Origin: Serratia sarumanii
GTDB lineage: Bacteria; Pseudomonadota; Gammaproteobacteria; Enterobacterales; Enterobacteriaceae
Reading direction: 5' to 3'
Length of the DNA: 64,000 nucleotides
Assembly (NCBI RefSeq): GCF_029962605.1
Contig: NZ_CP124750.1
Coordinates: forward strand, 1,054,001-1,118,000
The position numbers and the translations under genes were made by a program. The notes below the pieces were generated by a model that ran no database searches, had not been told where the DNA came from, and saw nothing but the letters and a program-made list of their open reading frames with translations. Positions 15,902 to 32,549 of this stretch are shown here, piece after piece. Position 1 is the first letter of the stretch; the number at the start of each line of letters is the position of its first letter.

Positions 15902-16015
15902 GGGGGCCCTGTTGGTTCTCCCGCAACACTAACTTGTGAACTCGGTCAGGTCCGGAAGGAAGCAGCCGCAGCAGGTGACGTGTGTGCCGGGATGTAGCTG
16001 GCAGGGTCCCCACCC
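15902..16015 (+). ncRNA. ffs: 4.5S RNA, signal recognition particle RNA
   Basis: About 114 nucleotides closely matching E. coli 4.5S RNA. The ends GGGGGCCCTG and CAGGGTCCCC pair to close the long hairpin. The Ffh-binding apical region GGTCAGGTCCGGAAGGAAGC with its GGAA tetraloop and AGCAGCC is intact. It binds Ffh to form the bacterial SRP for co-translational membrane targeting. The position next to ybaZ/atl is the same as in E. coli. The exact ends are inferred by comparison. Confidence 0.97.
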
Positions 16016-16373: not shown

Positions 16374-17171
16374 ATGATTTATATCATTGATAAAGATATT
16401 ACATTTAACACTGAAAACGGTTCATTGAAGAGTATAAAGAAGGGACGGGAAGTTTTCTTATCCAGCGTCAATTCGAGAGTATTCAAATGCTTGCTCGAGC
16501 ATGGCCACGAGGCGGTAAGCCGGGAAACGCTGTTGCAACAGGTTTGGAGCGATCACGGCTTGAGCGCTTCTTCCGCGACGTTAAATCAATATATCAGCCT
16601 GACGCGGCGGGCCTTGACGTCTGTCGGTTTCAACGAGCGCCTGATCGTTACCCTCTCTAAAAAGGGGTATAGACTCAATAGAATAATATCGATAGAGCGG
16701 CTGCGGATTGATTTGCCTGAGCCTCCCCACGCCGCGGACGTTCCCGCTACATCGCCCGCATCCGCCGCGGCGTCAAAAAATACCCACCATTATTTTTTTA
16801 TTCTGCTGCGCAGCTTATCGATCGTCGTGCCATTATCTTTTCTGGCGCTGTGCTTCATCTATTACAAACATCATCGCGACAGTGAAAAGAAGCAGGTATT
16901 GTCTTACGTCGGTACGGTGAACGGCTGCCCGATCTACTATGCCGGCCATTTTTTGGAGAATCATCAGGACGACTATTTGCAGTTCTTGATCCGTAAGGAT
17001 CTTTATGGCCAGCGTTGCCGCCCCGGTGAGATTATCATCACCAAGGTTAACCGTTCTCATAATGCCAGTGAAGACAGCGGACGCCAGTTTATCGCCAAAT
17101 GCACGAAGGACAGTGCGGCCGTTTTGCATAATTGTGAGAGCGAGTACATCCGGGCATGGAAAAAAAGTTAA
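16374..17171 (+). CDS. ToxR/CadC-like transmembrane winged-helix regulator
   Basis: A 265-residue protein with an OmpR/PhoB-type winged helix at about residues 5-100 (RETLLQQVWSDHG, then the wing motif LSKKGYRLN). A proline/alanine-rich linker and one membrane helix follow (about 142-164, FFILLRSLSIVVPLSFLALCF). The periplasmic domain of about 100 residues has four cysteines (NGCP, QRCRP, AKCTK, HNCES) that could form two disulfides. The architecture is that of CadC, ToxR or Salmonella MarT, which sense conditions in the periplasm and bind DNA while membrane-bound. The start is the ATG at 16374; a GTG at 16353 is possible. It overlaps the next gene by 16 bases. Low-GC codon use suggests transfer. 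The target genes are unknown; the nearby gsp operon is a candidate. Confidence 0.85.
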   Translation: MIYIIDKDITFNTENGSLKSIKKGREVFLSSVNSRVFKCLLEHGHEAVSRETLLQQVWSDHGLSASSATLNQYISLTRRALTSVGFNERLIVTLSKKGYRLNRIISIERLRIDLPEPPHAADVPATSPASAAASKNTHHYFFILLRSLSIVVPLSFLALCFIYYKHHRDSEKKQVLSYVGTVNGCPIYYAGHFLENHQDDYLQFLIRKDLYGQRCRPGEIIITKVNRSHNASEDSGRQFIAKCTKDSAAVLHNCESEYIRAWKKS

Positions 17172-17650
17172 ATATCTTGTCAGCCACGCTGGTCGGCCTG
17201 TGCGTGTTGACCGGCAGCGTGGTGTATTCCCTGGTGCGCAGCCATCATGGCTTCGGCGATTTGTCCTGCGAAGCGAACGCCACGTTTAATTATTTCAATT
17301 CGCTGGACGCGCAGGCGGCGCACGATGATATCCAGCTGTCGCTAAAAATAAACTACATCTTTTTGTCCGGCGATAAGGGCGTGATGATGCTGTCGGGCCT
17401 GGCCAACGATGGCGAAGAGAAGTATTTCGTCAACCGACGGGTTAACTTCAGCTACGTCTCGCAAGGCAGTTTTTATCGCTTCCACTATGGCGAGGTGAAT
17501 TATTCGCCGCGTGATACCTTGCCGGACGAGGTGTATACTTACTTTTTCAGCACTGAATCGACGTTTTATCATATTCGCAGCGTGGATAAGAATACGTTGA
17601 TGTTTAGCGATGCTTACTCGCCGATGTTTTTATGCAATATTGAATCCTGA
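17156..17650 (+). CDS. FidL-like membrane-anchored accessory protein
   Basis: A 164-residue protein with a short cytoplasmic start, one membrane helix (about residues 8-28, SATLVGLCVLTGSVVYSLV) and a periplasmic domain of about 135 residues. It overlaps the upstream ToxR-like gene by 16 bases, so the two are translationally coupled. The arrangement recalls ToxR-ToxS, PsaE-PsaF and Salmonella MarT-FidL pairs, where the second protein stabilises or tunes the membrane regulator. Assignment as FidL-like rests on layout and overall look rather than a measured alignment. Confidence 0.7.
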   Translation: MEKKLNILSATLVGLCVLTGSVVYSLVRSHHGFGDLSCEANATFNYFNSLDAQAAHDDIQLSLKINYIFLSGDKGVMMLSGLANDGEEKYFVNRRVNFSYVSQGSFYRFHYGEVNYSPRDTLPDEVYTYFFSTESTFYHIRSVDKNTLMFSDAYSPMFLCNIES

Positions 17651-18047
17651 TGTGCATGCTATTTTATATGGGTTAAGGTGTATTCTGGTTACCTTTTATA
17701 TCCTCGCGCCTGCCTTTTTCGCACGCAGCTAATAACATGGGTTATTATGCGTGAATGCCTATTTTTTCATTGTTAATCAAATTTAATGGTGATTTAGCTA
17801 TTTTATAAAAACGGCTATCATCATGTTTTTAAATGATTTAATGAATCTAAGGCGATGCGGTGTAGCCATATTAATTTTATATTGTTTATATTAAAGAAAT
17901 AAGTTGCATGAATGTTTTTCGCATGATTAATTGAGGCCGCTCTTGAAACGGCGAACTATTAATTTTCATTGAAAATGCATCTCGCCGCATGCGTGCAAAG
18001 GTGATGGCACAAGAGCCTTTGGACTTCATTAAACTGATAGGCGAGAG
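17651..18047. other. AT-rich gene-free stretch between membrane-regulator genes
   Basis: Nearly 400 bases with no credible ORF and much lower GC than the surroundings, rich in TTTTAT and ATTAAT runs. Besides the hairpin at 17722-17767 no firm element is seen. Such segments in enterobacteria are typical H-NS binding regions and promoter regions of acquired genes; that is inference. Confidence 0.4.
17722..17767 (+). terminator. Candidate terminator or operator after the FidL-like gene
   Basis: A long inverted repeat: CACGCA(GC)TAATAAC, loop ATGG, GTTATTATGCGTG, giving thirteen base pairs with a two-base bulge. A six-T run follows eight bases downstream. It could end the two-gene transcript. 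Its AT-rich symmetry also resembles a winged-helix operator, so the role is open. Confidence 0.5.
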
Positions 18048-18533
18048 ATGGACATACATAACATTGCCCTGAACGAGACTCTGTTGGAAAATGAGTTGGT
18101 GATATTAAACAACAATGAAAAAACGCTGTTGTTTAAAAAAGAGAATGTGCTCATTGAAATGACCGAATTACAGCGGCGCTTCATGCTGTGCCTGTTGAGC
18201 GGTATTTATAAGAAGAACGACATTATTCGCGCGGTCTGGTTTTGCAATCATGAGACCATCAGCGACAACAATTATTATCAGATGATATTCCAATGCCGTT
18301 CTTTGCTCTCACGCCACGGTATTCCCGGCGAGGTGATCAAGACCATTCCCCGATTTGGCGTGATGCTGAGCTTTCAGGCCTGCGAGCGCGCGGCCGCTAA
18401 TTTGCAGGGGGAATGCCCGTCGCCATCGGCTAATAAGCGCCGGCGAACGTGGTTGGACGCCGTGAATTATAAAGTGGCCCTGATCATCACGCTGCTGTTT
18501 TCTGTCGCGATGGTGGTCGGTATTTCCGCTTAG
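18048..18533 (+). CDS. Tail-anchored winged-helix protein
   Basis: A 161-residue protein. Residues 10-110 look like an OmpR/CadC-type winged helix (ELQRRFMLCLLSG, then KKNDIIRAVWF, and a wing ending in IKTIPRFGVMLSF). A basic linker (NKRRRTW) precedes a single membrane helix at the extreme C-terminus (YKVALIITLLFSVAMVVGISA), with no periplasmic domain. This differs from the classical ToxR-like layout and from the first regulator at 16374. It lies 30 bases upstream of gspC on the same strand, so it may be co-transcribed with the secretion operon. Function unknown; a local regulator of gsp is the simplest idea. Confidence 0.8.
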   Translation: MDIHNIALNETLLENELVILNNNEKTLLFKKENVLIEMTELQRRFMLCLLSGIYKKNDIIRAVWFCNHETISDNNYYQMIFQCRSLLSRHGIPGEVIKTIPRFGVMLSFQACERAAANLQGECPSPSANKRRRTWLDAVNYKVALIITLLFSVAMVVGISA

Positions 18534-18563
18534 CGTTGACACCGTTGAATAACCGGGGGGCAC

Positions 18564-19067
18564 GTGAGCAAGCGGTTGACAGACCTTCTTATTCTACTTT
18601 TCTGCCTGATAAATCTGGCATTCATGCTCCAGCTGGGATGGCGAATGGTGGCCGGGGATGGCACGCCCGTTGAGCCGAGCCGTGAAAACGCGCGCGGGCC
18701 GGTGCGTCATAGTGTCTTTCCTCAGGAAGATGACATCGGAAAAATTCATGACGCGCACTGGTTTGGCCGCTATCAAGCGGCGAAAAACGGCGAAAAGGCG
18801 CACGGGTATAAAGTCGGCGAATGGGCGATCGGTGCCGAGCTGCTGGCTAACGCGCCGGAAGCCGCAGCGCTCGGCAAGATAGCCGGCCTGCTGTTCAGCG
18901 ACAACGCCAAAAAAAGCCTGGTCATCGTCGAGCATGGCGGCAAGCAAACCGGTTATGGCGTTGGCGACCGTCTGGCCGGCAGCAATGCCGTTATCGTGCG
19001 GATAGTGAAAAATAAAATACTGCTCGATGAAAACGGCTATTACGCCACGCTGACGTTTAAAGAGTAG
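18564..19067 (+). CDS. gspC: GspC, type II secretion inner-membrane connector (short form)
   Basis: A 167-residue GspC with an N-terminal membrane helix (about 7-27) and the homology-region domain (about 65-165; GYKVGEWAIGAELLANAPEAA to LLDENGYYATLTF) that contacts GspD in the periplasm. The usual C-terminal PDZ or coiled-coil domain is missing; PulC and OutC are about 270-280 residues. The frame ends in a normal stop close to gspD, with no sign of a frameshift. The start is GTG with a GGGGGG ribosome site. It opens the gsp operon. Confidence 0.9.
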   Translation: MSKRLTDLLILLFCLINLAFMLQLGWRMVAGDGTPVEPSRENARGPVRHSVFPQEDDIGKIHDAHWFGRYQAAKNGEKAHGYKVGEWAIGAELLANAPEAAALGKIAGLLFSDNAKKSLVIVEHGGKQTGYGVGDRLAGSNAVIVRIVKNKILLDENGYYATLTFKE

Positions 19068-19115
19068 CCGGCGCGCCGTTTCGGCGCGGGGTGTTTCATA
19101 GCATAAGGCGACATT

Positions 19116-21083
19116 GTGATTACGCATTTCATTTATCGTTCCGGCCCAGGCTGGAGCGCCGGCTTATGGCGCGCATTGGCGGCGGCGGCCGTCATGATCG
19201 CGCTGGGGGGCGCGGCGCGCGCGGAGCAATTCTCTGCCAATTTCAAAGGCACGGACATTCAGGAATTTATCAATACGGTCAGTAAAAACCTGGGCAAAAC
19301 CATCATTATCGATCCGGCGGTGAAAGGTAAGGTCACGGTGCGCAGCTACGAACAGCTCGACGAGAAGCAGTATTACCAGTTCTTTCTCAACGTGCTGGAC
19401 GTCTATGGCTATACGGTCATCGGCATGCCCAACAACGTCCTGAAGGTGATTGCCGCCAAAGAGGGAAAAAGAGCCGCGCTGGCGCAAAACGGCGCAGAGG
19501 CGATCGCCGAAGGGGATGAGGTGGTGATGCGCGTGGTGCCGCTGCGCAATATCGCGGCCAAGGACGTTTCGCCGATATTGCGCCAGCTTAACGACAGCAT
19601 CGGCGTGGGCAGCGTGGCGCATTACGAGCAGGGCAACGCGCTGTTGATCACCGGCCGGGCCAGCGTGGTCAACGGCCTGCTCGAGCTGGTCAGGGAGATG
19701 GATCAGGACGACGGCAATCGGATCGAGACCCTCGCGCTGAAGCATGCGGCGGCGCCGGAGATCGCGCGCATGGTGAACGAACTGTTTCGCGAAGAGGGCA
19801 AGCGGCGTACGGCCGGCGCGAGCTCGCTGCGGCTGGTGGCGGATGAGCGAACCAACAGCGTGATGATCGCCGGGGACGATCGGGCCCGCGAACACGCCAA
19901 AGAACTGATTGATCAGCTGGATAACAAGAGCGTCACCCAGGGCAATACCCAGGTTATTCCGCTCAAATACGCCAAGGCGCAGAGCCTGGTCGAGGTATTG
20001 ACCGGCGTGAGTGCGGGCCTGCAAAACGAGAAAGAGAGCGCCGCCGCCAACGTGGCGCTGCTGAAAAACGTGGTGATCAAGGCCGATGAGCAGACCAATG
20101 CGCTGATCATCACCGCCGCGCCGGACGTGATGCGCGATCTGGAGGCGGTGGTCGCCAAGCTTGACGTGCGCCGCGCGCAGGTGCTGGTCGAAGCGGTGAT
20201 CGTCGAAGTGCAGGATGGGCAGGGGCTGAACATCGGCGTGCAGTGGGCCAACAAATACGGCGGCGGCACGCAGTTCGCCGGCTCGGCGCCCGGGGTGTCG
20301 GCGGGGTTCGAAAACGGCATGAGCGACGTGTTCGGCAAGGCCAACGGCCTGATGACCGGTTTCTACAGCGGTAACTGGGGCGTATTGCTGTCCGCCATCG
20401 CCAGCAACAACCAAAACAATATCCTGGCCACGCCGAGCATCGTCACGCTGGATAACGCCGAGGCGGAGTTCAGCGTCGGGCAGGATGTGCCGATCCTGAC
20501 CGGTTCGCAAACCACCAACAGCGATAACGTCTTCAATACCGTGTCGCGCAAGACGGTGGGGATCAAACTCAAGGTCAAACCGCAGATCAACCAGGGCCAG
20601 TCCGTGTTGCTGCAGATCGAACAGGAGGTCTCCAGCGTTGCCGACAGCGCCGGCGCCACGCCGGATTCGCTGGGGGCGACCTTCAATATCCGCACGGTCA
20701 ACAACACGGTGCTGGTGGACAGCGGCGAAACCGTGGTGGTGGGCGGCCTGTTGGACAAGTCCAACTCGGAGCTGGAGAGCAGCGTGCCGATCCTTGGCAA
20801 GATCCCGCTGGTGGGGGCGCTGTTTCGCTCGACCGCCACCAAAGCGAGCAAGCGCAATTTGATGCTGTTTATCCGCCCGACCATCATTCGCAGCACCGAG
20901 GGGTATGCCCGGCAGAGCCAACGCAAGTTAGGCAAGTTCGACGCCGAGCAGCAGGACGATCGTGAGCTGAATGACGCGCTGCGCGGCGAGATCGCCGGCG
21001 ATAAGAAGGCGCTCGACAATCGGGCGTTTCTCGCCACCGTTGCCAGTATCGACGCGTTTTATCCGCGGGGAGCCCGCCCGTGA
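19116..21083 (+). CDS. gspD: GspD, type II secretion outer-membrane secretin
   Basis: A 655-residue secretin precursor with a signal peptide (to GGAARA, about residue 36). The N0 domain ([16 protein letters not shown]) is followed by three N-domains and the C-terminal secretin domain (about 330-600), with the VPILTGSQT gate region and the VGGLLDKSN motif. The last 55 residues after the secretin core are the likely S-domain, docking site for a pilotin such as the gspS product encoded at 29014. The start is GTG preceded by AAGG at seven bases. The stop overlaps gspE by four bases. Confidence 0.97.
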
Positions 21084-22576
21084 AGCGCCGTTCCGCGGGG
21101 CCGCTGCTGCCTTTCGCCTGGGCGCGCCAGCATGGCGTGCTGGCCGTCGATGGGCAGAGCGGCATCCAAATGTATTGCCATCCTGAAACGAGCCACGCCG
21201 GGTTGATGGAGGCCTACCGCTGCCTGCCCGGCGTGCCGGCGCTGGCCCGGCTGGAGGTGGAGGCTTTTGATCAACGGCTGGTGGCGCACTACCAGCAGGA
21301 GAGCGGCCAGGCGCAGAGAATGATCGACGATCTGGGCGGCGAACTGGATTTTTACGCGCTGGCCGAAGAGCTGCCGCAGCAGCAAGACCTGTTGGACGAA
21401 CAGGACGATGCGCCGATTATCCGCCTGATCAACGCCTTACTGAGCGAGGCGATCAAAGAGCGCGCCTCCGATATCCACATCGAAACCTACGAGAGCGAGC
21501 TGGTGATCCGCTTTCGCATCGACGGCGCGCTGCGGCGGATTCTGGCACCGCAGCGCAAGCTGGCGGCGCTGCTGGTGTCGCGCATCAAGGTGATGTCGAA
21601 GCTGGATATCGCCGAGAAGCGCGTGCCGCAGGACGGGCGCATGGCGCTGAAGGTCGGCGGGCGGGCGATCGACGTGCGGGTGTCGGTGATGCCGGCCAGC
21701 CACGGCGAGCGCGTGGTCATGCGCCTGTTGGACAAACAGGGCGTGCGGCTCGAACTGCCCAGCCTGGGCATGGCGCCGGCGCACCAGCAGGCGTTGCTGC
21801 GTCTGATCCGCCAGCCGCACGGCATTATTTTGGTCACCGGGCCGACCGGCTCCGGCAAGAGCACCACGCTCTATACCTTGCTGAGCCAGATCAACGATGA
21901 ACAGCGCAACATCATGACGATCGAAGATCCCGTCGAGTATGAGTTGGCCGGCATCGCGCAGACTCAGGTGAATCCCAAGGTGGACATGACCTTCGCACGC
22001 GGCCTGCGCGCGCTGTTGCGGCAGGATCCCGACGTGGTGCTGATCGGCGAGATCCGCGACGGCGAAACGGCGCAGATCGCGGTGCAGGCCTCATTGACCG
22101 GGCATTTGGTGCTGTCGACCCTGCATACCAACACGGCGATCGGCGCCGTGACCCGGCTGCGGGACATGGGGGTCGAACCGTTTCTGCTTTCGAGTTCGCT
22201 CAGTGGCGTGTTGGCGCAGCGCCTGGTGCGTCGGCTTTGTCCGCAGTGCCGCGAGCCTTATGCGCTGTCTGACGCGCAGCGGCGCCTGCTGGGGCTGCCA
22301 CCGACGCAGGCGGTGACCTGCTGGCGCCCGTTGGGGTGCGAGGCCTGCGGCGGGCAGGGATATCACGGCCGAATCGGCTTGCACGAACTGTTGGTGCTGG
22401 ATGAACCGATGCGCATGGCGATCCATCGCGGTGACGGCGAGCTGGACATCGCGAAACTGGCCGCCGAACGCTACCTGCCGCTGCGCCAGGATGGGATCGC
22501 CAAGATGCGCGCCGGGGAGACCAGCCTGGAGGAAGTGCTGCGAGTGACGCGCGAAGGGGACGGCGATGAAGTTTGA
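21080..22576 (+). CDS. gspE: GspE, type II secretion ATPase
   Basis: A 498-residue cytoplasmic assembly ATPase. Walker A is [12 protein letters not shown] (about residue 254), the Asp box is [10 protein letters not shown], Walker B is [13 protein letters not shown], and the His box is LSTLHTNTA. The zinc-binding tetracysteine element CPQC…CEAC is intact. It powers pseudopilus assembly and docks to GspL. The GTG start overlaps the gspD stop (GTGA), and its 3' end overlaps gspF by eleven bases. Confidence 0.97.
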
Positions 22577-23777
22577 TTATCGCGCCTGCGACCGTGAGGG
22601 GCGCGCCCAGCGCGGCGTGTTGGAGGCGGATTCTCTGCGCCACGCCCGCGATCGCCTGCGTGAAAAGGGGTGGCAGGTGCTGGCGGTGCAAGCGCGCGGG
22701 CGGCCCGTTTTCGCCGGCATGTTGGCTGGCCGCTGGATGAGCGGCGTGAGCAGCGGCGATGTGGCGCTGTTGACCCGGCAGCTGGCGACGCTGCTCTCCG
22801 CTGCGCTGCCGCTCGAGGAAGCGTTGATGGCGGTGGCGCGGCAAACGGAGAAAAAAGGCCTGCAGGCGGCGTTGGCTCAGGTGCGGCAGCGCATTCTGGA
22901 GGGCTTCCCGCTGGCGCAGGCTCTAGGGCAGCATCCGCGGATTTTTGACCGTCTCTACTGCGCCATGGTGGCGGCCGGTGAGATTTCCGGCCATCTGGCG
23001 CCGGTGCTGGAGCGGCTGGCCGACTATGTCGAACAGCGCCAGCAAATGAAGAACAAGATCGTGCAGGCGCTGGTGTACCCAATGGTGCTGACGGCGGTGG
23101 CGATCGGCGTGGTGGCGATCCTGTTGACGGCGGTGGTGCCGAAGGTGATCGAACAGTTTGTGCATATGAAACAGACCTTGCCGCTGTCGACCCGGATGCT
23201 GCTCGGCGCCAGCGACGGGCTGCGCCAATGGGGGGCATTGGCGCTGATGTTGGCGCTGGCGAGTCTCGGCGCTTTCCGCTATCGCCTGCGGGATCCGGCG
23301 CGGCGCGTGCGCTGGCATGCGTTCATCCTGCGGTTGCCGCTGGTCGGCAAACTGTCGCTGGCGGTGAATACGGCGCGCTACGCCAAAACGCTGAGCATTT
23401 TGAACGCCAGCGCGGTGCCGTTGCTGGAGGCGATGCGCATCAGCGCCGGTGTGTTGGGCAACGACGCCGCCCGCGAACGGCTGCTGGCGGCGATGGAGCG
23501 GGTGCGGGAGGGCGAAGGGTTATCGCCGTCGCTCGAGGGCACCGCGCTGTTCTCGCCGATGATGCGGCACATGATCATGTCCGGCGAGCGCAGCGGTGAG
23601 CTGGACATGATGCTCGAGCGGGCGGCGACGATGCAGCAAGAGGCTTTCAGCCGGCAAATCACGCTGGCGCTGGGGCTTTTCGAGCCTTTATTGGTGATCG
23701 CGATGGCCGGTTCGGTGCTGTTCATCATTTTGGCCATCCTGCAGCCGATATTGCAGCTCAATAATATGGTCGGCTAA
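22566..23777 (+). CDS. gspF: GspF, type II secretion inner-membrane platform protein
   Basis: A 403-residue polytopic protein with two repeated GspF cytoplasmic domains (about 70-190 and 270-395), each followed by a membrane hairpin. The signatures [18 protein letters not shown] and [19 protein letters not shown] mark the two repeats. It links the ATPase to pseudopilin assembly. Embedded in the overlapping gsp operon. Confidence 0.96.
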
Positions 23778-23779
23778 TC

Positions 23780-24253
23780 ATGCCGTTAATGGAGAGTAAA
23801 GTGAGTCATATCAGCAAGATGCGCAGGTCGCGGCAGCGAGGGTTTACGCTGCTGGAAATCATGGTGGTGATCGTCATTCTGGGGCTGTTGGCCAGCCTGA
23901 CCATTCCAAGCCTGATGGGAAACAAGGAGAAGGCCGATCGGCAAAAGGCCGCCAGCGATATCGTGGCGCTGGAGAACGCGCTGGATATGTACAAGCTGGA
24001 TAACGGGCGTTATCCCAGCGCGGAACAGGGGCTGGCGGCGCTGGTGACCCGGCCGGCGCTGGCGCCGATCCCGAGGAATTATCCCGAAGACGGTTATATC
24101 CGCCGGTTGCCGCAAGATCCCTGGGGGCAGGAGTATCGTCTGCGTAATCCGGGGCGTCACGGCAAGCTGGACGTGTTTTCTCTGGGGCCGGACGGCATCG
24201 CCGACACCGATGACGATATCGGCAACTGGGTGGCCGACGCCGACGCGCCATGA
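23780..24253 (+). CDS. gspG: GspG, major pseudopilin
   Basis: A 157-residue prepilin-like protein. The leader ends RSRQRG and cleavage by GspO before FTLLEIMVV gives the mature major pseudopilin with the key Glu at +5. The mature part has the typical C-terminal calcium-binding loop region (FSLGPDGIADTDDDIGNW). The actual start could be a later in-frame GTG or ATG: the annotated ATG at 23780 gives a long 21-residue leader, and a start at 23801 (GTG) or 23819 (ATG) would be nearer the family norm. Confidence 0.95.
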   Translation: MPLMESKVSHISKMRRSRQRGFTLLEIMVVIVILGLLASLTIPSLMGNKEKADRQKAASDIVALENALDMYKLDNGRYPSAEQGLAALVTRPALAPIPRNYPEDGYIRRLPQDPWGQEYRLRNPGRHGKLDVFSLGPDGIADTDDDIGNWVADADAP

Positions 24254-24720
24254 GGCGCATACGCGGCTTTACGCTGCTGGAGATCATGCTGGTATTGCTG
24301 CTGCTGGGGGTGACCAGCGGCCTGGTGATGCTGAGTTTTCCGGCGGATGAGAAAGCGTTGGCACGGCAGGGGGAGCGGCTGAACCATTGGCTGTATGCCC
24401 TCGCCGAGCGGGCCGAACGTGAAGGGGTTAGTTATGGCGTGGCGTTCTCCAGCGGCGGTTGGCGCAGCGTCGCCGCCGAAGAGGGGCGGGATGAATACGT
24501 TTTGCCGGAGGGCATCGCGCTGCGGCTGAGCGTTGAGGGGCAAGCCGTCACGCTTGACGACGCGGCGGCGCAGATGCCGCAGGTGTGGCTGTATCCGGGG
24601 GGCGAAACCACGGCGTTCAGCGTGGCGCTGTCGCAGGGCAAGTGCCAGTGGCGATTGCAGGCACCCGGTTACTTCGTATTTGAAACGACGGATATTCGTT
24701 GCGATGACGCGGAAAATTAA
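24250..24720 (+). CDS. gspH: GspH, minor pseudopilin
   Basis: A 156-residue minor pseudopilin with a very short leader (MRRIRG) cleaved before FTLLEIMLVLLLLG. The body is the GspH/FimT-type domain. It overlaps gspG by four bases (ATGA) and gspI by 17 bases. Confidence 0.93.
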   Translation: MRRIRGFTLLEIMLVLLLLGVTSGLVMLSFPADEKALARQGERLNHWLYALAERAEREGVSYGVAFSSGGWRSVAAEEGRDEYVLPEGIALRLSVEGQAVTLDDAAAQMPQVWLYPGGETTAFSVALSQGKCQWRLQAPGYFVFETTDIRCDDAEN

Positions 24721-25081
24721 ACGCCAGCGGGGTATGACGCTGCTGGAGGTAATGGTGGCCTTGATGATCTTCGCCATCGGCTGCCTGGCGCTGATCAACA
24801 GCACCGGCGGCCAGGTGCGCAGCCTGAGCGCGATCGAAGCCAAGACCGTTGCGCTGTGGGTGGCGGACAACCAGTTGACGCTGCTGCAGCTCGACCCGCA
24901 TCCGCCGACGCTGGCCTGGCATTCGGGCACTGCGGCGATGGCCGGTGAAACCTGGCACTGGCGCTATCGCGGGCAGGAGACCAGCGACGCCGGAATGCGG
25001 GCGATCGCGATTGAAGTCCGGCGCGATCCGCAGGATCGCAACGCGCTGGTGGAGATGCTGGCCTACAGGGCACTGCCATGA
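24704..25081 (+). CDS. gspI: GspI, minor pseudopilin
   Basis: A 125-residue minor pseudopilin. The leader MTRKIKRQRG is cleaved before MTLLEVMVALMIFAIGCLAL. The start lies inside the end of gspH; the longer open frame from 24533 is only overlap with gspH. GspI nucleates the GspI-J-K tip of the pseudopilus. Confidence 0.94.
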   Translation: MTRKIKRQRGMTLLEVMVALMIFAIGCLALINSTGGQVRSLSAIEAKTVALWVADNQLTLLQLDPHPPTLAWHSGTAAMAGETWHWRYRGQETSDAGMRAIAIEVRRDPQDRNALVEMLAYRALP

Positions 25082-25689
25082 AACGCGGTTCGCAATGCGG
25101 TTTTACGCTGGTGGAAATGCTGCTGGCCATCGCCCTGTTCGCCATGCTGTCGCTCACCGCGCTGGCGGTCTTTAGGGGCGTGCTGAAAAGCGATGAAATC
25201 ACCCGGCGCAAATCGACGCAGCTGACCCAGCTGCAACGGGCGCTGGCGATCGTCGAACGCGATTTCACTCATGCGCAGGCGCGGGCGCCGATTGGCGATA
25301 AGCGCTTGCCGGCGGTGCCGGAGTTCGCGGTGCGGCAGACGGTGGGCGAGGACGCGGATATACAGCTGCTGCTGATCCGAAACGGCTGGCCGAATCCACA
25401 CGCTCGGCTGCCGCGCGCCACGCTGGAGCGGGTGGTGTATCGCTACCGGCAGGGGCGGCTCGAGCGTCTCAGCTATCCGAGTTTGGACAGCCCGCAGGCG
25501 GCGGCGCGCAGCGTGCTGCTGCTGCCGGAGGTGACGCGGTTCCGCCTGCGTTTTTACCTGCAGGGCGAATGGTTGACGGCCTGGCGCGCCGGCGGGCTGC
25601 TGCCGCAGGCGGTGGAGATCGTCGTCGAAACCCCCGCGCTGGGGGAGGTGCGCCGCATCGTCACGGTGCCCGCCGCGAGGCCATCATGA
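25078..25689 (+). CDS. gspJ: GspJ, minor pseudopilin
   Basis: A 203-residue minor pseudopilin with leader MKRGSQCG and cleavage before FTLVEMLLAIALFAMLSL. The globular C-terminal domain fits the family length. Overlaps gspI and gspK by four bases each. Confidence 0.94.
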   Translation: MKRGSQCGFTLVEMLLAIALFAMLSLTALAVFRGVLKSDEITRRKSTQLTQLQRALAIVERDFTHAQARAPIGDKRLPAVPEFAVRQTVGEDADIQLLLIRNGWPNPHARLPRATLERVVYRYRQGRLERLSYPSLDSPQAAARSVLLLPEVTRFRLRFYLQGEWLTAWRAGGLLPQAVEIVVETPALGEVRRIVTVPAARPS

Positions 25690-26588
25690 AAAAACAACGC
25701 GGTATGGCGCTGTTGATGGTGCTGCTGCTGATGTCGCTGATGGCGATCGTGGCGATCAATATCAACGACAACTGGCAGCGTTCGCTGGCGCGCACCCAGT
25801 CTCAACAGGATCGGCTGAAGGCCAAATGGCTGCTGCTGGGCGGGGAGATCTACGCCCAACAGCGATTGCGGCAGGCGGGAGAGAAGCGCAAGGCTTGGGG
25901 AGCATCAGGAGCGGCGTTCAGGATGCGTACCGAAGAGGGGGAGGTGGCGATACGCCTGCGCCGCGTCGATGCCTGTTTCAACCTAAACGCCCTGATCCGC
26001 GCCGCCGGCCCAACGGAGGCCGGGGATAGCGAGGGGGTTCCCCCCAATAAGGAGAGGCGGATATTCATGCTGTTACTGAACAACCTGGGGATCGCCGACG
26101 CGCAGGCGGGCGCGATTGCCGAGGCCATCGCCGCCAGGGGCGATGACGAGGGGTATCTGATGGGGAATGTCAGCGAACTGCGGGAGCTGGCCGGCATCGA
26201 TCGTGAGCTTTACCTGCGCCTGGCACCGCAGCTTTGTGCGGCGCCGGATGCCGAACTGCGCATCAACCCGGATGCCGTGAGCGAGGCGCAATTACCGCTG
26301 CTGCGGGCGATGCTGATGAACGCCCTGAGCGATGAACGGCTGCGGGAGCTGCTGGCGGCCCGTCCGCCGCAGGGCTGGCAGACGCTGGCGTTTTTGTCGC
26401 AGGAAAAAGCGCTGCAAGACTTGGGTGACGACGATCTCGGCGAGCGATTGACGTTCGACGATAGCCGCTGGATTGCGCAGCTGCAGCTGACGCTGAACGA
26501 CGGGCGCTATCGGCTCGTCAGCGCGTTGCAACCGGGCCAGTCAGGCGTCACGGTCAGCGGACGCCTGTTCGACAGAGGGGAGGGGTAA
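25686..26588 (+). CDS. gspK: GspK, pseudopilus tip protein
   Basis: A 300-residue pseudopilin with leader MKKQRG and cleavage before MALLMVLLLMSLM. It lacks Glu+5, as is normal for GspK, and has a large inserted alpha domain. It caps the pseudopilus tip. The start is the ATG overlapping the gspJ stop; the frame from 25569 is a gspJ overlap. Confidence 0.94.
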   Translation: MKKQRGMALLMVLLLMSLMAIVAININDNWQRSLARTQSQQDRLKAKWLLLGGEIYAQQRLRQAGEKRKAWGASGAAFRMRTEEGEVAIRLRRVDACFNLNALIRAAGPTEAGDSEGVPPNKERRIFMLLLNNLGIADAQAGAIAEAIAARGDDEGYLMGNVSELRELAGIDRELYLRLAPQLCAAPDAELRINPDAVSEAQLPLLRAMLMNALSDERLRELLAARPPQGWQTLAFLSQEKALQDLGDDDLGERLTFDDSRWIAQLQLTLNDGRYRLVSALQPGQSGVTVSGRLFDRGEG

Positions 26589-26591
26589 AGG

Positions 26592-27722
26592 GTGGCGAAT
26601 ACAATCCTGCTTATCGCGCTGAGCGAGGACTTGATGGCCGATGTGCGCTGGGGCCGCGTCGGCGAGACGAGTTGCCGTTTCGCCGCCCACCTCGATCTGA
26701 CCGAAGGCGGCGGCGAGTTGGCGGCCATGGCGCAGGGCAGCCGCGTCGTGGTGTTGGTGCCTGCCCGTCATGTGGCGCTGAGGCAAACGACATTCCAGGG
26801 CAAGGCCCGGCAGGCGACGCCGTTGGCGCTGGCCTACGCCCATGAGGCCGGGTTGTTGGCCGATGCCGAGCAGATGCACTGGGCGGTGCTGGACAAGGCG
26901 CAGCGCGATTTCACCCTCGCCGGCGTCGCGTTGACGCAGATGCAGGAATGGGTCGAGCGCCTGAGCGCCAGCGGCATTCGCGCCGATAAAATGCTGCCCG
27001 ACGTGCTGGCATTGCCGCTGCCCGGTCAATGCAGCGCGCTGCATTGGCGCAACCACTGGTTGATCCGAACGGGAAACGGGCAGGGAATGCAGCTGCCCGA
27101 CGCCTGGCTGGGCTGCGCTTCACTGCCGACGCCGGACTGGTGTCTGCACCGCGGCGGGGAGGTTCCGGCGGGCTGGGAAGCGGCGCGCATTGACGAGGAT
27201 CCGCTCTGGCGACTGGCGGAAGAGGCCTGGAACAGTACATTCACGCTGCTGCAGGGACGTTTCAAACCGAGCGTACGCTGGCCGCGCCGCCTGCCCGACA
27301 AGACCGCCTGCGCGCTGCTGTTGCTCAGCGGTTCGCTGCTGGTGGGCGGTTTGCACCACCAACAGATGGCCCGGCAGAGCGAGAGCCAGATTGCGGCGCT
27401 CTCACGGCACCTGCTGCCGGGCCAGGCCGCGTCGGCGTTTGCCGAGCAGGCGGTGAAAGCGCGGGTGCGGCGTATGCAGGATGCCCTGAATGCGCCGCAG
27501 CTGTTCAGGCTGTTGCCCTACGCGGCCGGGGCGCTCGCGTTATGGGCGCCCCAGCAGCTGCAGGCGCTGGCTTTCGACGCCGCCGACGATCGTCTGGTGG
27601 TGACGGTGAACAGAAACGACGTGCCGCTGCCGGCGCCGGTTAACGACGGCGAGGTCAGCATGGCGTTCAGCGAAGGCGGTGCGTCCAACCAGGCGATCCT
27701 GACGGTGAGAGGTGAGCGATGA
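26592..27722 (+). CDS. gspL: GspL, inner-membrane platform protein
   Basis: A 376-residue bitopic protein: an actin-like cytoplasmic domain (about 1-235) that recruits GspE, one membrane helix (about 240-258, ACALLLLSGSLLVGG) and a small periplasmic ferredoxin-like domain. GTG start with a GAGGGG ribosome site. Overlaps gspM by four bases. Confidence 0.93.
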   Translation: MANTILLIALSEDLMADVRWGRVGETSCRFAAHLDLTEGGGELAAMAQGSRVVVLVPARHVALRQTTFQGKARQATPLALAYAHEAGLLADAEQMHWAVLDKAQRDFTLAGVALTQMQEWVERLSASGIRADKMLPDVLALPLPGQCSALHWRNHWLIRTGNGQGMQLPDAWLGCASLPTPDWCLHRGGEVPAGWEAARIDEDPLWRLAEEAWNSTFTLLQGRFKPSVRWPRRLPDKTACALLLLSGSLLVGGLHHQQMARQSESQIAALSRHLLPGQAASAFAEQAVKARVRRMQDALNAPQLFRLLPYAAGALALWAPQQLQALAFDAADDRLVVTVNRNDVPLPAPVNDGEVSMAFSEGGASNQAILTVRGER

Positions 27723-28165
27723 ATATCGGGTGGCGCGATAAGGCGTTGCGGCGGGCGGTGCTGTTAAGCCTGTTGCTGCTGGCAGCCTGCGGCTACTGCC
27801 TGTATCAGTTTTCACAGGCGCAGAAAAGCGCACAGCGCCTGGCCGCGTTGCAGGGGCAGGCACGCGTCATCCAGCAACTGCAGGCGCGCTTGCCGCCGGA
27901 TGCCGCTGCGCGCGAGCAACTGCCGGAGCGGCTGCGGCAGAGCGCGCAGGCGTTCCGCATCCCCATCATCGCCCTGACGGAAAGTGATGCGCAGATGCAG
28001 GTGGGGCTGCCGCCCGTGCCGTTTGAAAGCCTGCTGTCGTGGCTGGCCGCCCTGCAGCGTGAGTATGGCATCCGCGTGCTGGCGCTCGCCGTGGAGCGCG
28101 CGGAGCAGGCGCCGGGCGTAGTGCAGGTCAACCTGCTGCGGGTAACGACGCAGCCGTCGATGTAA
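27719..28165 (+). CDS. gspM: GspM, inner-membrane platform protein
   Basis: A 148-residue protein with one N-terminal membrane helix (about 12-30, AVLLSLLLLAACGYCLYQF), a coiled-coil stretch and a periplasmic ferredoxin-like domain. It stabilises GspL. It is the last of the overlapping genes; gspO follows after 36 bases, and no gspN is present. Confidence 0.92.
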   Translation: MNIGWRDKALRRAVLLSLLLLAACGYCLYQFSQAQKSAQRLAALQGQARVIQQLQARLPPDAAAREQLPERLRQSAQAFRIPIIALTESDAQMQVGLPPVPFESLLSWLAALQREYGIRVLALAVERAEQAPGVVQVNLLRVTTQPSM

Positions 28166-28201
28166 CCAACGCGAAAGAATCATCAGGGATCAGAAAAAAT
28201 C

Positions 28202-29017
28202 ATGCTATTTGCTATAAATGCGGCGGCAGATGAACACTGGCTGTTATTTAGCGCCGTGTTGAGTTTGTGCGTCGGTAGTTTTATTAACGTAGTCGTTTAT
28301 CGGCTGCCCATTATGCTTGAGCGCGAAATGGAAACGGCGCAGGCCGAGCGGTTCGATCTCTTTTGGCCGCGTTCATTCTGTCCGTCATGCACAAAAAAAT
28401 TATCGGCGTTCGATAATATTCCTTTATTAAGTTGGCTGCTGTTGCGTGGCCGCTGTCGTTATTGCCGCCGTCCTATTGCCGTGCGTTATCCACTGCTGGA
28501 ATTATTTCTGATGCTGATGGGGATAACGCTGGCCTGGCGGCTCGGCATCGGGGTGGATTGGTTTTTCATGCTGGCGTTGGTTGCGCTGTTGCTGGCGTTG
28601 GCGGCGATCGACAGCCAATGTCAGCTGCTGCCGGATTGCCTGACGCTATCGCTGCTGTGGATCGGCTTACTGTGGCATTGCCTGGCGCACCCGGCCTTTT
28701 TGCCGGCGGCGGTCATTGGCGCGATGGCGGGCTATCTGGCGCTCTGGCTATTGTATTGGGGATTTCGTTTGGCGACCGGCCGCGAGGGGCTGGGATACGG
28801 CGATTTCAAACTGTTGGCGGCGCTTGGCGCCTGGGGCGGCTATGCCGCTTTGCCGTCGATCCTGCTGTTCGCCTCCGCCGGCAGCCTGCTGTGGCTGTTG
28901 CTGCGCGCGTGGCGCGGCGGCGATGCGGCCCAACCCCTGCCCTTCGGGCCGGGGTTGGCGACGGCGGGTGCCGGCGCGGTGGCCTGTCAGTGGCTTGCGC
29001 TGCCGATAGGGGGCTAA
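28202..29017 (+). CDS. gspO: GspO, prepilin leader peptidase and N-methyltransferase
   Basis: A 271-residue type IV prepilin peptidase (family A24). The N-terminal cytoplasmic loop has the zinc-type cysteines CPSC and CRYC. The two catalytic aspartates are in AAIDSQCQLLPD and GLGYGDFKLL. It cleaves and methylates GspG-K. The 5' part has lower GC than the 3' part. It converges on gspS, overlapping by four bases at the 3' ends. Confidence 0.95.
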   Translation: MLFAINAAADEHWLLFSAVLSLCVGSFINVVVYRLPIMLEREMETAQAERFDLFWPRSFCPSCTKKLSAFDNIPLLSWLLLRGRCRYCRRPIAVRYPLLELFLMLMGITLAWRLGIGVDWFFMLALVALLLALAAIDSQCQLLPDCLTLSLLWIGLLWHCLAHPAFLPAAVIGAMAGYLALWLLYWGFRLATGREGLGYGDFKLLAALGAWGGYAALPSILLFASAGSLLWLLLRAWRGGDAAQPLPFGPGLATAGAGAVACQWLALPIGG

Positions 29018-29376
29018 CGCAGCTGGGCTAAAAAAGGCGCCAGCGAGCGGTTGAGTCCACGGCACTTTTCCTGCAGCGGCGTGGCGTCGGCCTCCAGCTG
29101 CGCGGCGACGTGTTTACCCGCCGCAAGCAGTTGGGCGCGATTGAGCGCCGGCGTCCAATCTTTTTCCTTCGCTTCCTGCAGCGCCGCCGCCGCGAGCTTA
29201 TCGCCGGCCGGAATATCGGCGCGGTTGCACCTGTCTCTTAGAAATTGACCGGCGCCGACCAGCGACGACAGCTGGTCGCGTTGGGTGGCGGCGTCAGGAG
29301 CCGATTTGGCGACGTGCTGGCAGCCGGATAACAGCAGGGATGCCACGATCGCTGCGGCAATATTTTTCAATGTCAC
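29014..29376 (-). CDS. gspS: GspS, PulS/OutS-type pilotin lipoprotein
   Basis: A 120-residue lipoprotein with lipobox LSGC (Cys at residue 19) and an all-helical body. The cysteine pair RDRC and QEKC is placed as in PulS/OutS pilotins, where it forms a disulfide. Pilotins bind the C-terminal S-domain of GspD and carry the secretin to the outer membrane. It is encoded at the end of the gsp operon on the opposite strand. Confidence 0.85.
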   Translation of the reverse strand: MTLKNIAAAIVASLLLSGCQHVAKSAPDAATQRDQLSSLVGAGQFLRDRCNRADIPAGDKLAAAALQEAKEKDWTPALNRAQLLAAGKHVAAQLEADATPLQEKCRGLNRSLAPFLAQLR

Positions 29377-29629
29377 GTTATTTTCTCTGCGGTGTTGGTA
29401 CGGTGTATTTATTTTCTTGCTCGGTGCTACGGTATTTCACGCTTTCCGGATTATTTTAAACGTTTGTCATGCCATTTAATATCATGACGATATTAGGTTT
29501 TATTATTTTAATGCATTCTAAGTGCCGGGCGTTCAGGGCTTCTACTTATTATTCCTCTCGCGGTATCGCCGCATCTCTTTGAGTTTCTTCTCACTCAGTT
29601 GGAATCCAATAAATTTAACTGGAGTCGTA

Positions 29630-31060
29630 ATGAAATTATCCAAAATCGCCCTGATGATGGCAACGCTCGCGGCCTCCTCGGCCGCCTGGTCGCACGGTTA
29701 TATCGAAGTGCCCGAGAGCCGCGCCTACAAGTGCAAGCTGGGCAGCAACACCGACTGCGGCCGGGCGCAGTGGGAACCGCAGAGCGTCGAGCAGGTTTCC
29801 GGCTTCCCTGGCGGCGCGACGCCGCTCGACGGCCAGCTGGCCAGCGGCGGGGTGAACGGCTTCGAGTCGTTGGATCGCCAGGGCGTCAACGTCTGGGCGT
29901 TGAATACCATGAAGCCGGGGCCACAGACGTTCACCTGGTACCACACCGCCAAGCACAAAACCAATAACTGGCGTTACTACATCACCAAACAGGACTGGGA
30001 TGTGAACAAGCCGCTGTCGCGCGAGGCCTTCGAAAAAGAGCCGTTCTGCGAGATTGATGGCCATGCCAAGCCGCCAAAAGATCGCGAAGTGCACCAGTGC
30101 GTGGTGCCGGAGAGAACCGGCTATCAGGTGATTTACGGCGTGTGGGAAATCAATGACACGGTAAACAGTTTCTATCAGGTGGTTGACGTTAACTTCGAAG
30201 ACGACGGCGTCGTGTCGGAATGGCGCAAGCAGCTGCAAGGTTCCCTCACCGGTAAAAACCTGCAGGTTGGCGACAAGGTGATCGCCCGCTTCTTCGATGC
30301 GGACGGTGAAGTGCTGACGATGAAAACCGAACTGGCGATCGACAGTGAGACGCTGACCGACAAAAACCGCTGGGGTCACGCGCTGGCCAGCAAGATCAAC
30401 GCCGAACAGAAAGCGGTGCGTGCCGGGGTGAAAGACGGCAAAGGCAACGTCAATCCGGTATTCGGCAACAACGCGGTCTACGCCAAGCAGGGCAGCACGA
30501 TGAAGAGCGTGGTGATTTCCTATGAGGAAGAAACGCCGGCTATCACCGAAGAGATCCGCATCGGCAACCTGTCCAGCACCAAAATCAAGGACGGCAAAGC
30601 TCAGCTGACCTTCAATGCCGAGGTCAAAGGCAAACTGACGGTTGAAGCGCGCGTTTACGACCACGGCCAGACGGAGAAAGGCTATGTGAAAGCGACGCTG
30701 GAAGACGCCAGCCAGCCGCTGACTATGGCGCTGAGCAACGTCAGCGAAGGCCACCACATGCTGAAAGTGATCGCCAGCAACGACAACGGGCAGAGCATTC
30801 AACCAGATATCGAAAACTTCAACCTGGAAGCGGAATCCACCGGCGGTGGCGGCGGCAACGGCGACTATAACTTCGTCTTCCCGAACGCGCTGAGTAAATA
30901 CACTGCCGGCACCACGGTGCTGCAACCGAAAGACGGCAAGGTATATCAGTGCAAACCTTTCCCTTACAGCGGTTACTGCATGCAGTGGAACAGCGGCGCG
31001 ACTCACTTTGAGCCGGGCGTGGGTTCCAACTGGCAGGATGCCTGGGTCGTGAAAAAGTAA
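29630..31060 (+). CDS. gbpA: GbpA-like chitin-active lytic polysaccharide monooxygenase
   Basis: A 476-residue exported protein. The signal peptide ends AAWS, exposing His as the first mature residue (HGYIEVPESR), the first copper ligand of AA10 LPMOs. The second histidine is in FTWYHTAKH. The AA10 domain spans about residues 23-200, followed by two GbpA-type modules (about 205-410). A glycine-rich linker (TGGGGGNGD) leads to a C-terminal chitin-binding module with aromatic and cysteine residues (YQCKPFPYSGYC). The length is close to Vibrio GbpA (485). LPMOs oxidatively cleave crystalline chitin and are classic type II secretion substrates, which fits the neighbouring gsp locus. The start is the ATG at MKLSKIALMM; the longer frame from 29522 would disrupt the signal peptide. 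Confidence 0.93.
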   Translation: MKLSKIALMMATLAASSAAWSHGYIEVPESRAYKCKLGSNTDCGRAQWEPQSVEQVSGFPGGATPLDGQLASGGVNGFESLDRQGVNVWALNTMKPGPQTFTWYHTAKHKTNNWRYYITKQDWDVNKPLSREAFEKEPFCEIDGHAKPPKDREVHQCVVPERTGYQVIYGVWEINDTVNSFYQVVDVNFEDDGVVSEWRKQLQGSLTGKNLQVGDKVIARFFDADGEVLTMKTELAIDSETLTDKNRWGHALASKINAEQKAVRAGVKDGKGNVNPVFGNNAVYAKQGSTMKSVVISYEEETPAITEEIRIGNLSSTKIKDGKAQLTFNAEVKGKLTVEARVYDHGQTEKGYVKATLEDASQPLTMALSNVSEGHHMLKVIASNDNGQSIQPDIENFNLEAESTGGGGGNGDYNFVFPNALSKYTAGTTVLQPKDGKVYQCKPFPYSGYCMQWNSGATHFEPGVGSNWQDAWVVKK

Positions 31061-31112: not shown

Positions 31113-31631
31113 ATGTCACACGAACCTGCCCGTTACGATCTTTTCAGTCGGTTACTGCATTGGGGCATTGCCGCCGTGATGATCTACGTAATGATCGTTG
31201 GTTATTCACTGCATTTTATGACGGATGCACGCATCTTCGCCTTTTTCTCCGTGACCAATATGTCGCTGGCCTTGGTGCTGACACCGCTGATGGCGGCGCG
31301 CTTTATCTGGCGTTTTTTCCGGCCTAAGGTGCCCTATGGCGATATGCTGCAAGGGCACGAGAAGGGATTGGTGCATTTGCTGCACGAAATATTCTACCTG
31401 CTGATTTTCGTGGTGCTGCTCAGTGGATTCCTTATGCTGGAGCACGGCTTTGCCGTTTTCGGTGCGATCGACTTCCCTCGCCCGATAGCAAATCTCGACG
31501 TTAACCGCTTCTTTTTCGCCGTGCACCGTTATTCGTGCATCGCGCTGTCGGCCATGGTCGTGCTGCACATAGCGGCGGTGATTAAACACCACTGCTTCGC
31601 CGGGCAGGCGATTTTGCGCCGCATGCTCTGA
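31113..31631 (+). CDS. Cytochrome b561 family protein
   Basis: A 172-residue four-helix membrane cytochrome. Candidate haem-ligand histidines are in the expected helices (RLLHWGIA, LLHEIFYL, FAVHRYSC, VVLHIAAVIKHH). The family (CybB/YodB/YceJ type) passes electrons from quinol; E. coli CybB has been linked to superoxide-quinone chemistry. A strong AAAGGAG ribosome site is present. The partner is unknown. Confidence 0.9.
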   Translation: MSHEPARYDLFSRLLHWGIAAVMIYVMIVGYSLHFMTDARIFAFFSVTNMSLALVLTPLMAARFIWRFFRPKVPYGDMLQGHEKGLVHLLHEIFYLLIFVVLLSGFLMLEHGFAVFGAIDFPRPIANLDVNRFFFAVHRYSCIALSAMVVLHIAAVIKHHCFAGQAILRRML

Positions 31632-31927: not shown

Positions 31928-32131
31928 TTATCTGACATATTTCCAAACGGAGGTGGGGATTTTGTCATACAGTTTGTTCATGGTGAGCTCCGCCAGACGG
32001 TGATCGGCCGCTGAGTAAAACAGCTCCAGTTCATCATCGGAAAGCTCGTACTTATTTTTCTCAATAACACGTTCGAGAGTATCAATCGTGGTGCATTTAC
32101 GTAAACGCATCAGATAGTCGGTTTTAGTCAT
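31928..32131 (-). CDS. hha: Hha/YmoA, H-NS co-regulator
   Basis: A 67-residue protein almost identical in my recollection to Yersinia YmoA ([22 protein letters not shown]…). Hha proteins bind H-NS or StpA and strengthen silencing of AT-rich, often horizontally acquired, genes. It follows tomB by 49 bases on the same strand, as in E. coli. Confidence 0.97.
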
Positions 32132-32180
32132 GGTGGCCTTTAGTTTAATAACCGTAAAATAGCTCGGGAATAATTATCCC

Positions 32181-32549
32181 CTAAGTTTTCATTGTCGTAC
32201 AGATGTCCTCTCCTGAGAACATTCTGAATAATCTCGCCTTGGTTTTTTGCCAGCGGCGCAGGTCGGAATCATTGATACCGTAGCTGCTGAACAGCGTATA
32301 GGTATCGTCGAGATATTCTTCGACTAACTCCGACAGGTCTGATTCGTCCATGTATTTAATTTTATAACTCATCACAAACGAAGCGATATGTTCGATCAAC
32401 TCATTAAGCTGCAGGTTGACGGAGGACGTCGGATCGTTGACCCACCCATGGTGACTGTCTCCCAGGGTAGCGATACCTTCATCATACAAATTTTCGCACA
32501 AGAATTTGAGCTGAGCAATGTCGTGTCGCTTAGGCGAATACTCATCCAT
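32181..32549 (-). CDS. tomB: TomB (YbaJ), Hha toxicity modulator
   Basis: A 122-residue acidic cytoplasmic protein matching YbaJ/TomB (MDEYSPKRHDIAQLKFLCENLYDEG…). TomB counteracts Hha toxicity, apparently by promoting oxidation of an Hha cysteine; the Hha here has that cysteine in RKCTT. The pair is an antitoxin-toxin-like operon affecting biofilm and persistence in E. coli. Confidence 0.96.
   Translation of the reverse strand: MDEYSPKRHDIAQLKFLCENLYDEGIATLGDSHHGWVNDPTSSVNLQLNELIEHIASFVMSYKIKYMDESDLSELVEEYLDDTYTLFSSYGINDSDLRRWQKTKARLFRMFSGEDICTTMKT

Follow-up and report, generated by a model that had tools for sequence, protein, structure and literature searches.

In this work, we analyzed a window of 64,000 nucleotides from Serratia sarumanii (contig NZ_CP124750.1, positions 1,054,001 to 1,118,000; genome G000, 5.19 Mb), in which three genes, herein designated A, B and C, precede the gspC gene of a type II secretion system (T2SS) operon on the same strand. 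On the basis of their sequences and predicted structures, A and B appear to form a co-component sensor of the VtrA/VtrC, ToxR/ToxS or MarT/FidL type, and C is a winged-helix regulator of the PclR/PypC family, predicted to be held in the membrane by its C-terminus. The explanation that we consider best for the whole, and which we hold with roughly even confidence, is that A/B would sense a periplasmic cue and turn on C, leading to co-regulation of gbpA, the gene of a chitin/N-acetylglucosamine (GlcNAc)-binding protein, and perhaps of gsp.

The three genes are known kinds of parts, and what C relatives do at T2SS operons has been published; the placement of a co-component pair before an anchored PclR looks like a new arrangement, and our literature search, outside which most subscription papers lay, found no paper on an A/B pair before a PclR-type gene. 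According to the available part of a 2012 review, PclR may require a further partner regulator (PMC3521999), and the A/B pair, located directly before a pclR gene, constitutes a concrete, deletable candidate for the missing input to PclR/PypC-headed T2SS. In the accessible parts of the literature, the co-component family has so far been described for type III secretion systems (T3SS), adhesins and related virulence genes; if our explanation is true, the family would also cover the export of a chitin/GlcNAc-binding protein by a T2SS.

Architecture of the A/B pair and of protein C

Protein A matches Trans_reg_C (2e-14, exceeding the Pfam cut-off), and its alignment and hydrophobic segment delimit a winged helix (residues ~1-105), a single transmembrane (TM) segment (~141-165) and then a periplasmic domain with four invariant cysteines (185, 215, 243 and 254); Cys 243 and 254 are invariant in 10/10 aligned A proteins, a disulfide bond between them being putative. 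Protein B matches FidL_like (1e-8, also exceeding the Pfam cut-off), as found for 8/9 B members, and displays an N-terminal TM followed by a predicted lipocalin-like periplasmic domain with two invariant cysteines (38 and 160). The closest relatives of its predicted structure are ToxS and VtrC, and no match below E 1 was obtained for B against PDB sequences. The pair thus contains the features by which co-component systems are recognized, namely a winged helix-TM-periplasmic factor, an adjacent overlapping partner gene, and a partner with a TM and a lipocalin-like domain. The overlap comprises 16 bases in the window and is kept in all nine loci carrying both genes; together with the narrow length range of the B-C gap in these loci, this goes beyond chance. 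For A, protein searches retrieved 21 relatives, and for B 11; those with a named source belong to Serratia, except for one distant Brenneria match to A.

Regarding described systems, MarT/FidL (Salmonella pathogenicity island 3) and GrvA/FidL share the FidL_like domain with B and the domain order with A; however, the targets described for them in the available parts of the sources are an adhesin (MisL) or the locus of enterocyte effacement and include no T2SS, and their overlap details are unlike those of A/B. VtrA/VtrC of the Vibrio parahaemolyticus T3SS2, as far as the accessible descriptions go, resemble A/B in that the sensor genes overlap and lie beside a secretion system, although A/B adjoin a T2SS and VtrA/VtrC a T3SS.

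Protein C alone gave no Pfam match; within its alignment, Trans_reg_C was matched at E <= 1 by 7/19 members (best 4.6e-5), and the profile matches the DNA-binding domains of SaeR and ToxR (E 0.0026). The predicted structure (mean predicted local distance difference test, 72.5) consists of an OmpR-type winged helix (four strands, three helices, then a wing region) plus a C-terminal helix, and its top PDB matches were DNA-binding domains of OmpR/PhoB-type response regulators, the best at E 0.01 and none below 0.001. Since just one residue remains behind the best hydrophobic stretch (residues 143-160), C has no periplasmic domain. An earlier reading of these letters without database searches (the sequence-only reading) had called the third gene a winged helix with a C-terminal anchor alone, which the model and the hydrophobic stretch bear out.

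The same reading regarded the third gene as undescribed, and this did not hold. In the available part of PMC3521999, both Yersinia T2SS are headed by a regulator, PclR (Yts1) or PypC (Yts2); Erwinia and S. proteamaculans are reported to carry a pclR-yts1-chiY unit, and linkage to a cytochrome b561-like gene is also mentioned. The window contains this published unit, with C, gspC to gspO, antisense gspS, gbpA and the cytochrome b561-like gene (Table 1), and window C gave 75-90 bits by BLAST against the gsp-head copies compared; a status of C as a new regulator was accordingly rejected. With PclR/PypC, window C shares a homologous winged helix, the place before gspC, and the end of the unit (antisense gspS and a chitin-binding gene). 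In contrast, C is anchored and preceded by A/B, whereas the fetched Yersinia copies, whose individual PclR or PypC label was deduced from their neighbours, are without a strongly hydrophobic tail.

Of 11 Serratia C proteins, all but that of the named strain H1w have their best 18-residue hydrophobic stretch at the C-terminus, with a mean hydropathy of 2.2-2.6; it is followed by 0-1 residues in nine copies and by 11 in G005. Among 29 gsp-linked named loci, tails with a hydropathy of at least 2.1 were found in five, all of them Serratia, and the next highest value was 1.72 (a Pantoea locus). Because such tails are rare among relatives, the anchored layout, which the sequence-only reading had found unusual, belongs mainly to the Serratia lineage and not to the PclR/PypC family at large. 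VtrB of Vibrio, as described in the available part of PMC10971746, is also a winged helix with a C-terminal TM and no further domain. VtrB of V. parahaemolyticus likewise lies beside a secretion system, its kinship to C being compared by common fold alone. As a separate observation, three Erwinia/Pantoea loci (L144, L148 and L152) contain C relatives of 196-204 amino acids with a strongly hydrophobic tail, 210-283 bases before a gspO-like gene, and neither gspC nor gspD was recognized directly downstream of them.

The numbers of the sequence-only reading were all confirmed, including the coupling of A and B by their overlap and the position of C 30 bases before gspC, which starts with GTG at 18564. 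So was its statement that the trio is AT-richer than its neighbours: the GC content is 48.6% for A, 48.7% for B and 48.4% for C, against 60.6% for the window, and these are the three lowest values among its 52 non-overlapping open reading frames (ORFs) of at least 130 amino acids. The 400-base stretches with the lowest GC in the window lie inside and beside the B-C gap, which has 397 bases and 35.5% GC.

Table 1. Features of the gsp island and its left flank (window positions; aa, amino acids).
Feature	Position	Strand	Basis and remarks
ffs (small signal recognition particle RNA), left flank of island	15910..16006	+	Rfam RF00169, 75.7 bits
Gene A, ToxR/VtrA-like factor	16374..17171	+	265 aa; ORF call, Pfam, alignment
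Gene B, FidL-like partner	17156..17650	+	164 aa; ORF call, Pfam, structure model
B-C gap, AT-rich, candidate control region of C	17651..18047		putative function
Gene C, PclR/PypC-family winged helix with predicted C-terminal membrane anchor	18048..18533	+	161 aa; profile, model, BLAST
gspC to gspO, T2SS operon	18564..29017	+	ORF list, domain matches
gspS pilotin (PulS_OutS), antisense	29014..29376	-	domain match
gbpA, chitin/GlcNAc-binding protein, chiY counterpart	29630..31060	+	domain matches; program-called ORF starts at 29522
Cytochrome b561-like gene, right end of island	31113..31631	+	ORF list; homologues near gsp elsewhere

Linkage with the secretion genes in Serratia and beyond

The comparison of gene neighbourhoods proposed with the sequence-only reading was carried out in 30 genomes of the genus; as in our other genome sets, these are one per species and related, so that the counts are not independent. 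An intact gspD is present in 10 of them; C was matched, at E 2e-36 or better, in each of these and in none of the 20 remaining genomes. Orthologs of A and B are found in 8/10 gsp-positive and 0/20 gsp-negative genomes, always directly before C, and H1w provides a ninth locus with both genes. C lies directly before gspC in 11/11 Serratia loci, at 16-49 bases, and gbpA is present in the window and in 9/10 gsp-positive genomes, being missing from G019. A positional tie between a membrane signalling module and gsp/gbpA, as formerly proposed, is thereby supported. The three genes do not form an inseparable trio: G019 and G020 keep C and gsp without A/B, with the C-gsp genes at a different chromosomal site and C 48 bases from gspC.

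The unit lies directly after ffs in 6/10 gsp-positive genomes; in G014 and G005 other DNA separates ffs from A, with A-B-C-gsp undisturbed. At the island site, G013 retains a gspD scrap fused to cytochrome sequence, and in G021 gbpA (at a contig end) and the cytochrome gene remain beside tomB; because of these remnants, our results suggest that the island was lost repeatedly in the genus. The interval from ffs to the hha/tomB-like genes is variable across Serratia, being occupied by the gsp island, by other inserts (G014, G005, G013 and G003), or by remnants of gspD, gbpA or cytochrome b561.

At the level of the family, 392 genomes were searched with the C profile. Among 20 high-scoring loci inspected, gspC/gspD follow directly in nine, and the rest comprise one decayed locus, two with gspO only and eight without gsp. 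C lies beside gspD in at least 12 genomes (13 loci, a set chosen by eye, with the weakest C matches falling outside it) out of the 92/392 with gspD at E <= 1e-60. A scan of the genome collection gave 52 named C loci, in which gspC/gspD are directly downstream in 29, gspO is within 4 kb in six, and neither is found in 17; the gspD call required >300 bits, L133 and L149 were scored as unlinked with weak gspD pieces 1.3 kb off, and no C ORF was recognized in L157. Wide occurrence without gsp, named in advance as a sign against the positional tie, was not seen for A/B; C relatives outside Serratia do occur without gsp, in the 17 loci mentioned. Short C relatives with no hydrophobic tail and no gsp nearby were observed in L100, L101 and L114-L118; those of L100 and L101 adjoin what we take to be mutT-secA and hofB/hofC-like genes.

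A and B occur in just 5/51 named loci with C, and the notion that they are part of every PclR locus was rejected. FidL-type partners (PF15941) are present in 65/392 family genomes, and among the matches listed, proximity to gspD was seen only for those of G000 and G014 and for one match in G002, which also led us to reject a general FidL-gsp association. Because the FidL matches listed elsewhere sit away from gspD, the FidL-type pair beside a T2SS is a Serratia arrangement in the genome sets examined.

A different overlapping pair, A'/B', was found at the distal end of the T2SS cluster in 5/9 further PclR/PypC loci fetched (L158, 4370-5490; L159; L160, 4768-5915; L161; and L163, 3991-5150). 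L158-L161 come from a single genus, and three of these four match Yersinia species; L163 matches Candidatus Fukatsuia. A' is a winged helix-TM factor, B' has 158-164 amino acids with an N-terminal hydrophobic stretch, and the two overlap by 16 bases in each locus. The pair is next on the strand after gspO in L158, L159 and L163, after a gspM-like gene in L161, and after a reverse 804-amino acid ORF behind gspK in L160; gspO was recognized in neither L160 nor L161. No overlapping pair was found at the far end of the cluster in L162 and L164-L166. Similar genes lie near C in three genomes that are reduced or decayed, and gspO is also present in two of these. A'/B' are like A/B in combining a winged helix-TM factor with a small membrane partner, in their 16-base overlap and in their PclR/PypC T2SS cluster, but sit at the operon end opposite to the A/B side. 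Homology of B and B' was discarded, as no similarity was detected between them; B' has no FidL match, and A' resembles A in the winged helix only, from which the two pairs look like independent recruitments. It can be tentatively proposed, although we consider it rather doubtful, that unrelated co-component receptor cassettes have joined PclR/PypC T2SS heads more than once, on the upstream side in Serratia and at the opposite operon end in Yersinia-type clusters, following a VtrA/VtrC-VtrB logic, with an anchored terminal regulator in Serratia that would allow sensing, transcription and secretion-machine assembly to occur at one membrane site.

Proposed regulatory route and its alternatives

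The B-C gap measures 361-412 bases in 9/9 loci with A and B. Block discovery covered 8/9 of these gaps, 8/9 regions upstream of A (G012 was omitted, being close to G014) and 8 of 9 gbpA regions. Some 180 bases ahead of C (in G002, 126) lies a 20-base block, with 0-3 mismatches in 7/9 loci, where the 0 mismatches of the window are by construction, since it supplied the block searched; the block fits a candidate site for A. In the A/B-less G019 and G020, it was no better than shuffles. Before A, it shows 5-7 mismatches, equaled by 1.7-11% of shuffles in 8/9 loci and by 32% in H1w; upstream of gbpA there are 8-9 mismatches, equaled by 81-99% of shuffles, and a single motif shared by the promoters of C, A and gbpA was rejected. 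No terminator-like site was found between C and gspC. Two other candidates were discarded: a small RNA in the gap, whose sole match (RsaD, 21.9 bits, cut-off 50) was taken as chance, and the idea that a locus without A/B has a stronger promoter, which a scan of L048 did not support.

Gene identity, architecture, linkage and constant spacing are direct observations, and the route we propose builds on them together with the predicted folds of B and C. A and B would form a co-component receptor in the inner membrane, presumably a heterodimer, in which the lipocalin-like domain of B would pair with the periplasmic domain of A and sense a cue, possibly lipid-like. The cytoplasmic winged helix of A would then activate transcription from the AT-rich gap between B and C, probably working against H-NS-type silencing, and this transcription would yield C, a tail-anchored PclR. 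Run-through over the short C-gspC gap may add to gsp expression, and membrane-held C would activate gbpA in Serratia, matching the secreted substrate to the machine. In the available part of PMC3521999, overproduction of PclR in Yersinia enterocolitica raised chiY, at high Mg2+ only, and overproduction of PypC raised yts2C about fourfold; the PclR result supports a link from C to gbpA.

Several findings weigh against this route. Overproduced PclR raised neither yts1C nor genomic pclR in the same available text (PMC3521999), which weakens a strong C-to-gsp step; the 20-base block was no better than shuffles in G005 and H1w; promoter-like matches were not in excess (7 vs 4.3 +/- 2.3 expected); G019 and G020 carry C and gsp with no A or B; and few of the listed PF15941 matches are near gspD. 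Some of these findings would agree with C alone regulating gbpA/gsp on its own cue (Mg2+ and temperature have been proposed for PclR), A/B being a separate cassette with other targets that joined the island, an explanation we find possible but on the unlikely side. The A/B-less loci G019 and G020, the low share of named C loci with A and B, the location of most listed FidL-type cassettes away from gspD, the lack of an A'/B'-like pair in 4/9 other PclR/PypC loci with the far end fetched, and the acceptance of other inserts at the ffs-side site all favour it; nevertheless, in the 30 genus genomes A/B are found only beside C, their order and spacing are fixed in 9/9 loci, and a different pair is located at the opposite end of PypC-type clusters.

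A direct action of A/B on gbpA and/or gsp, parallel to C and not through it, seems improbable to us. An OmpR-type winged helix is predicted in both A and C at one locus, and ToxR and VtrA cooperate at one Vibrio promoter according to the accessible part of the source; however, the longest and AT-richest intergenic stretch, which holds a conserved block, is that between B and C and not the region upstream of gbpA, where the block was not found. It is less probable still that C serves the secretion machine as an accessory in the inner membrane and is no regulator: despite its adjacency to gspC in every Serratia locus compared and the anchor of most Serratia copies, the conserved part of C is the winged helix, the anchor is missing from most relatives, and transcription changed upon overproduction of PclR and PypC in the published part of the evidence.

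Other observations concern the remainder of the window and of its genome. GspC (18564-19067) has just 167 amino acids, with the T2SSC domain matched, and is ~70-150 amino acids under the NCBIfam GspC models (259-319 positions). At L002 (G000:C1:4272919-4275062), two further winged-helix genes of 271-274 amino acids face each other on opposite strands, and one of them is a weak C relative with 28% identity. On the far side of the island, the window contains genes at 31928-32549 that we take to be hha-like and tomB-like.
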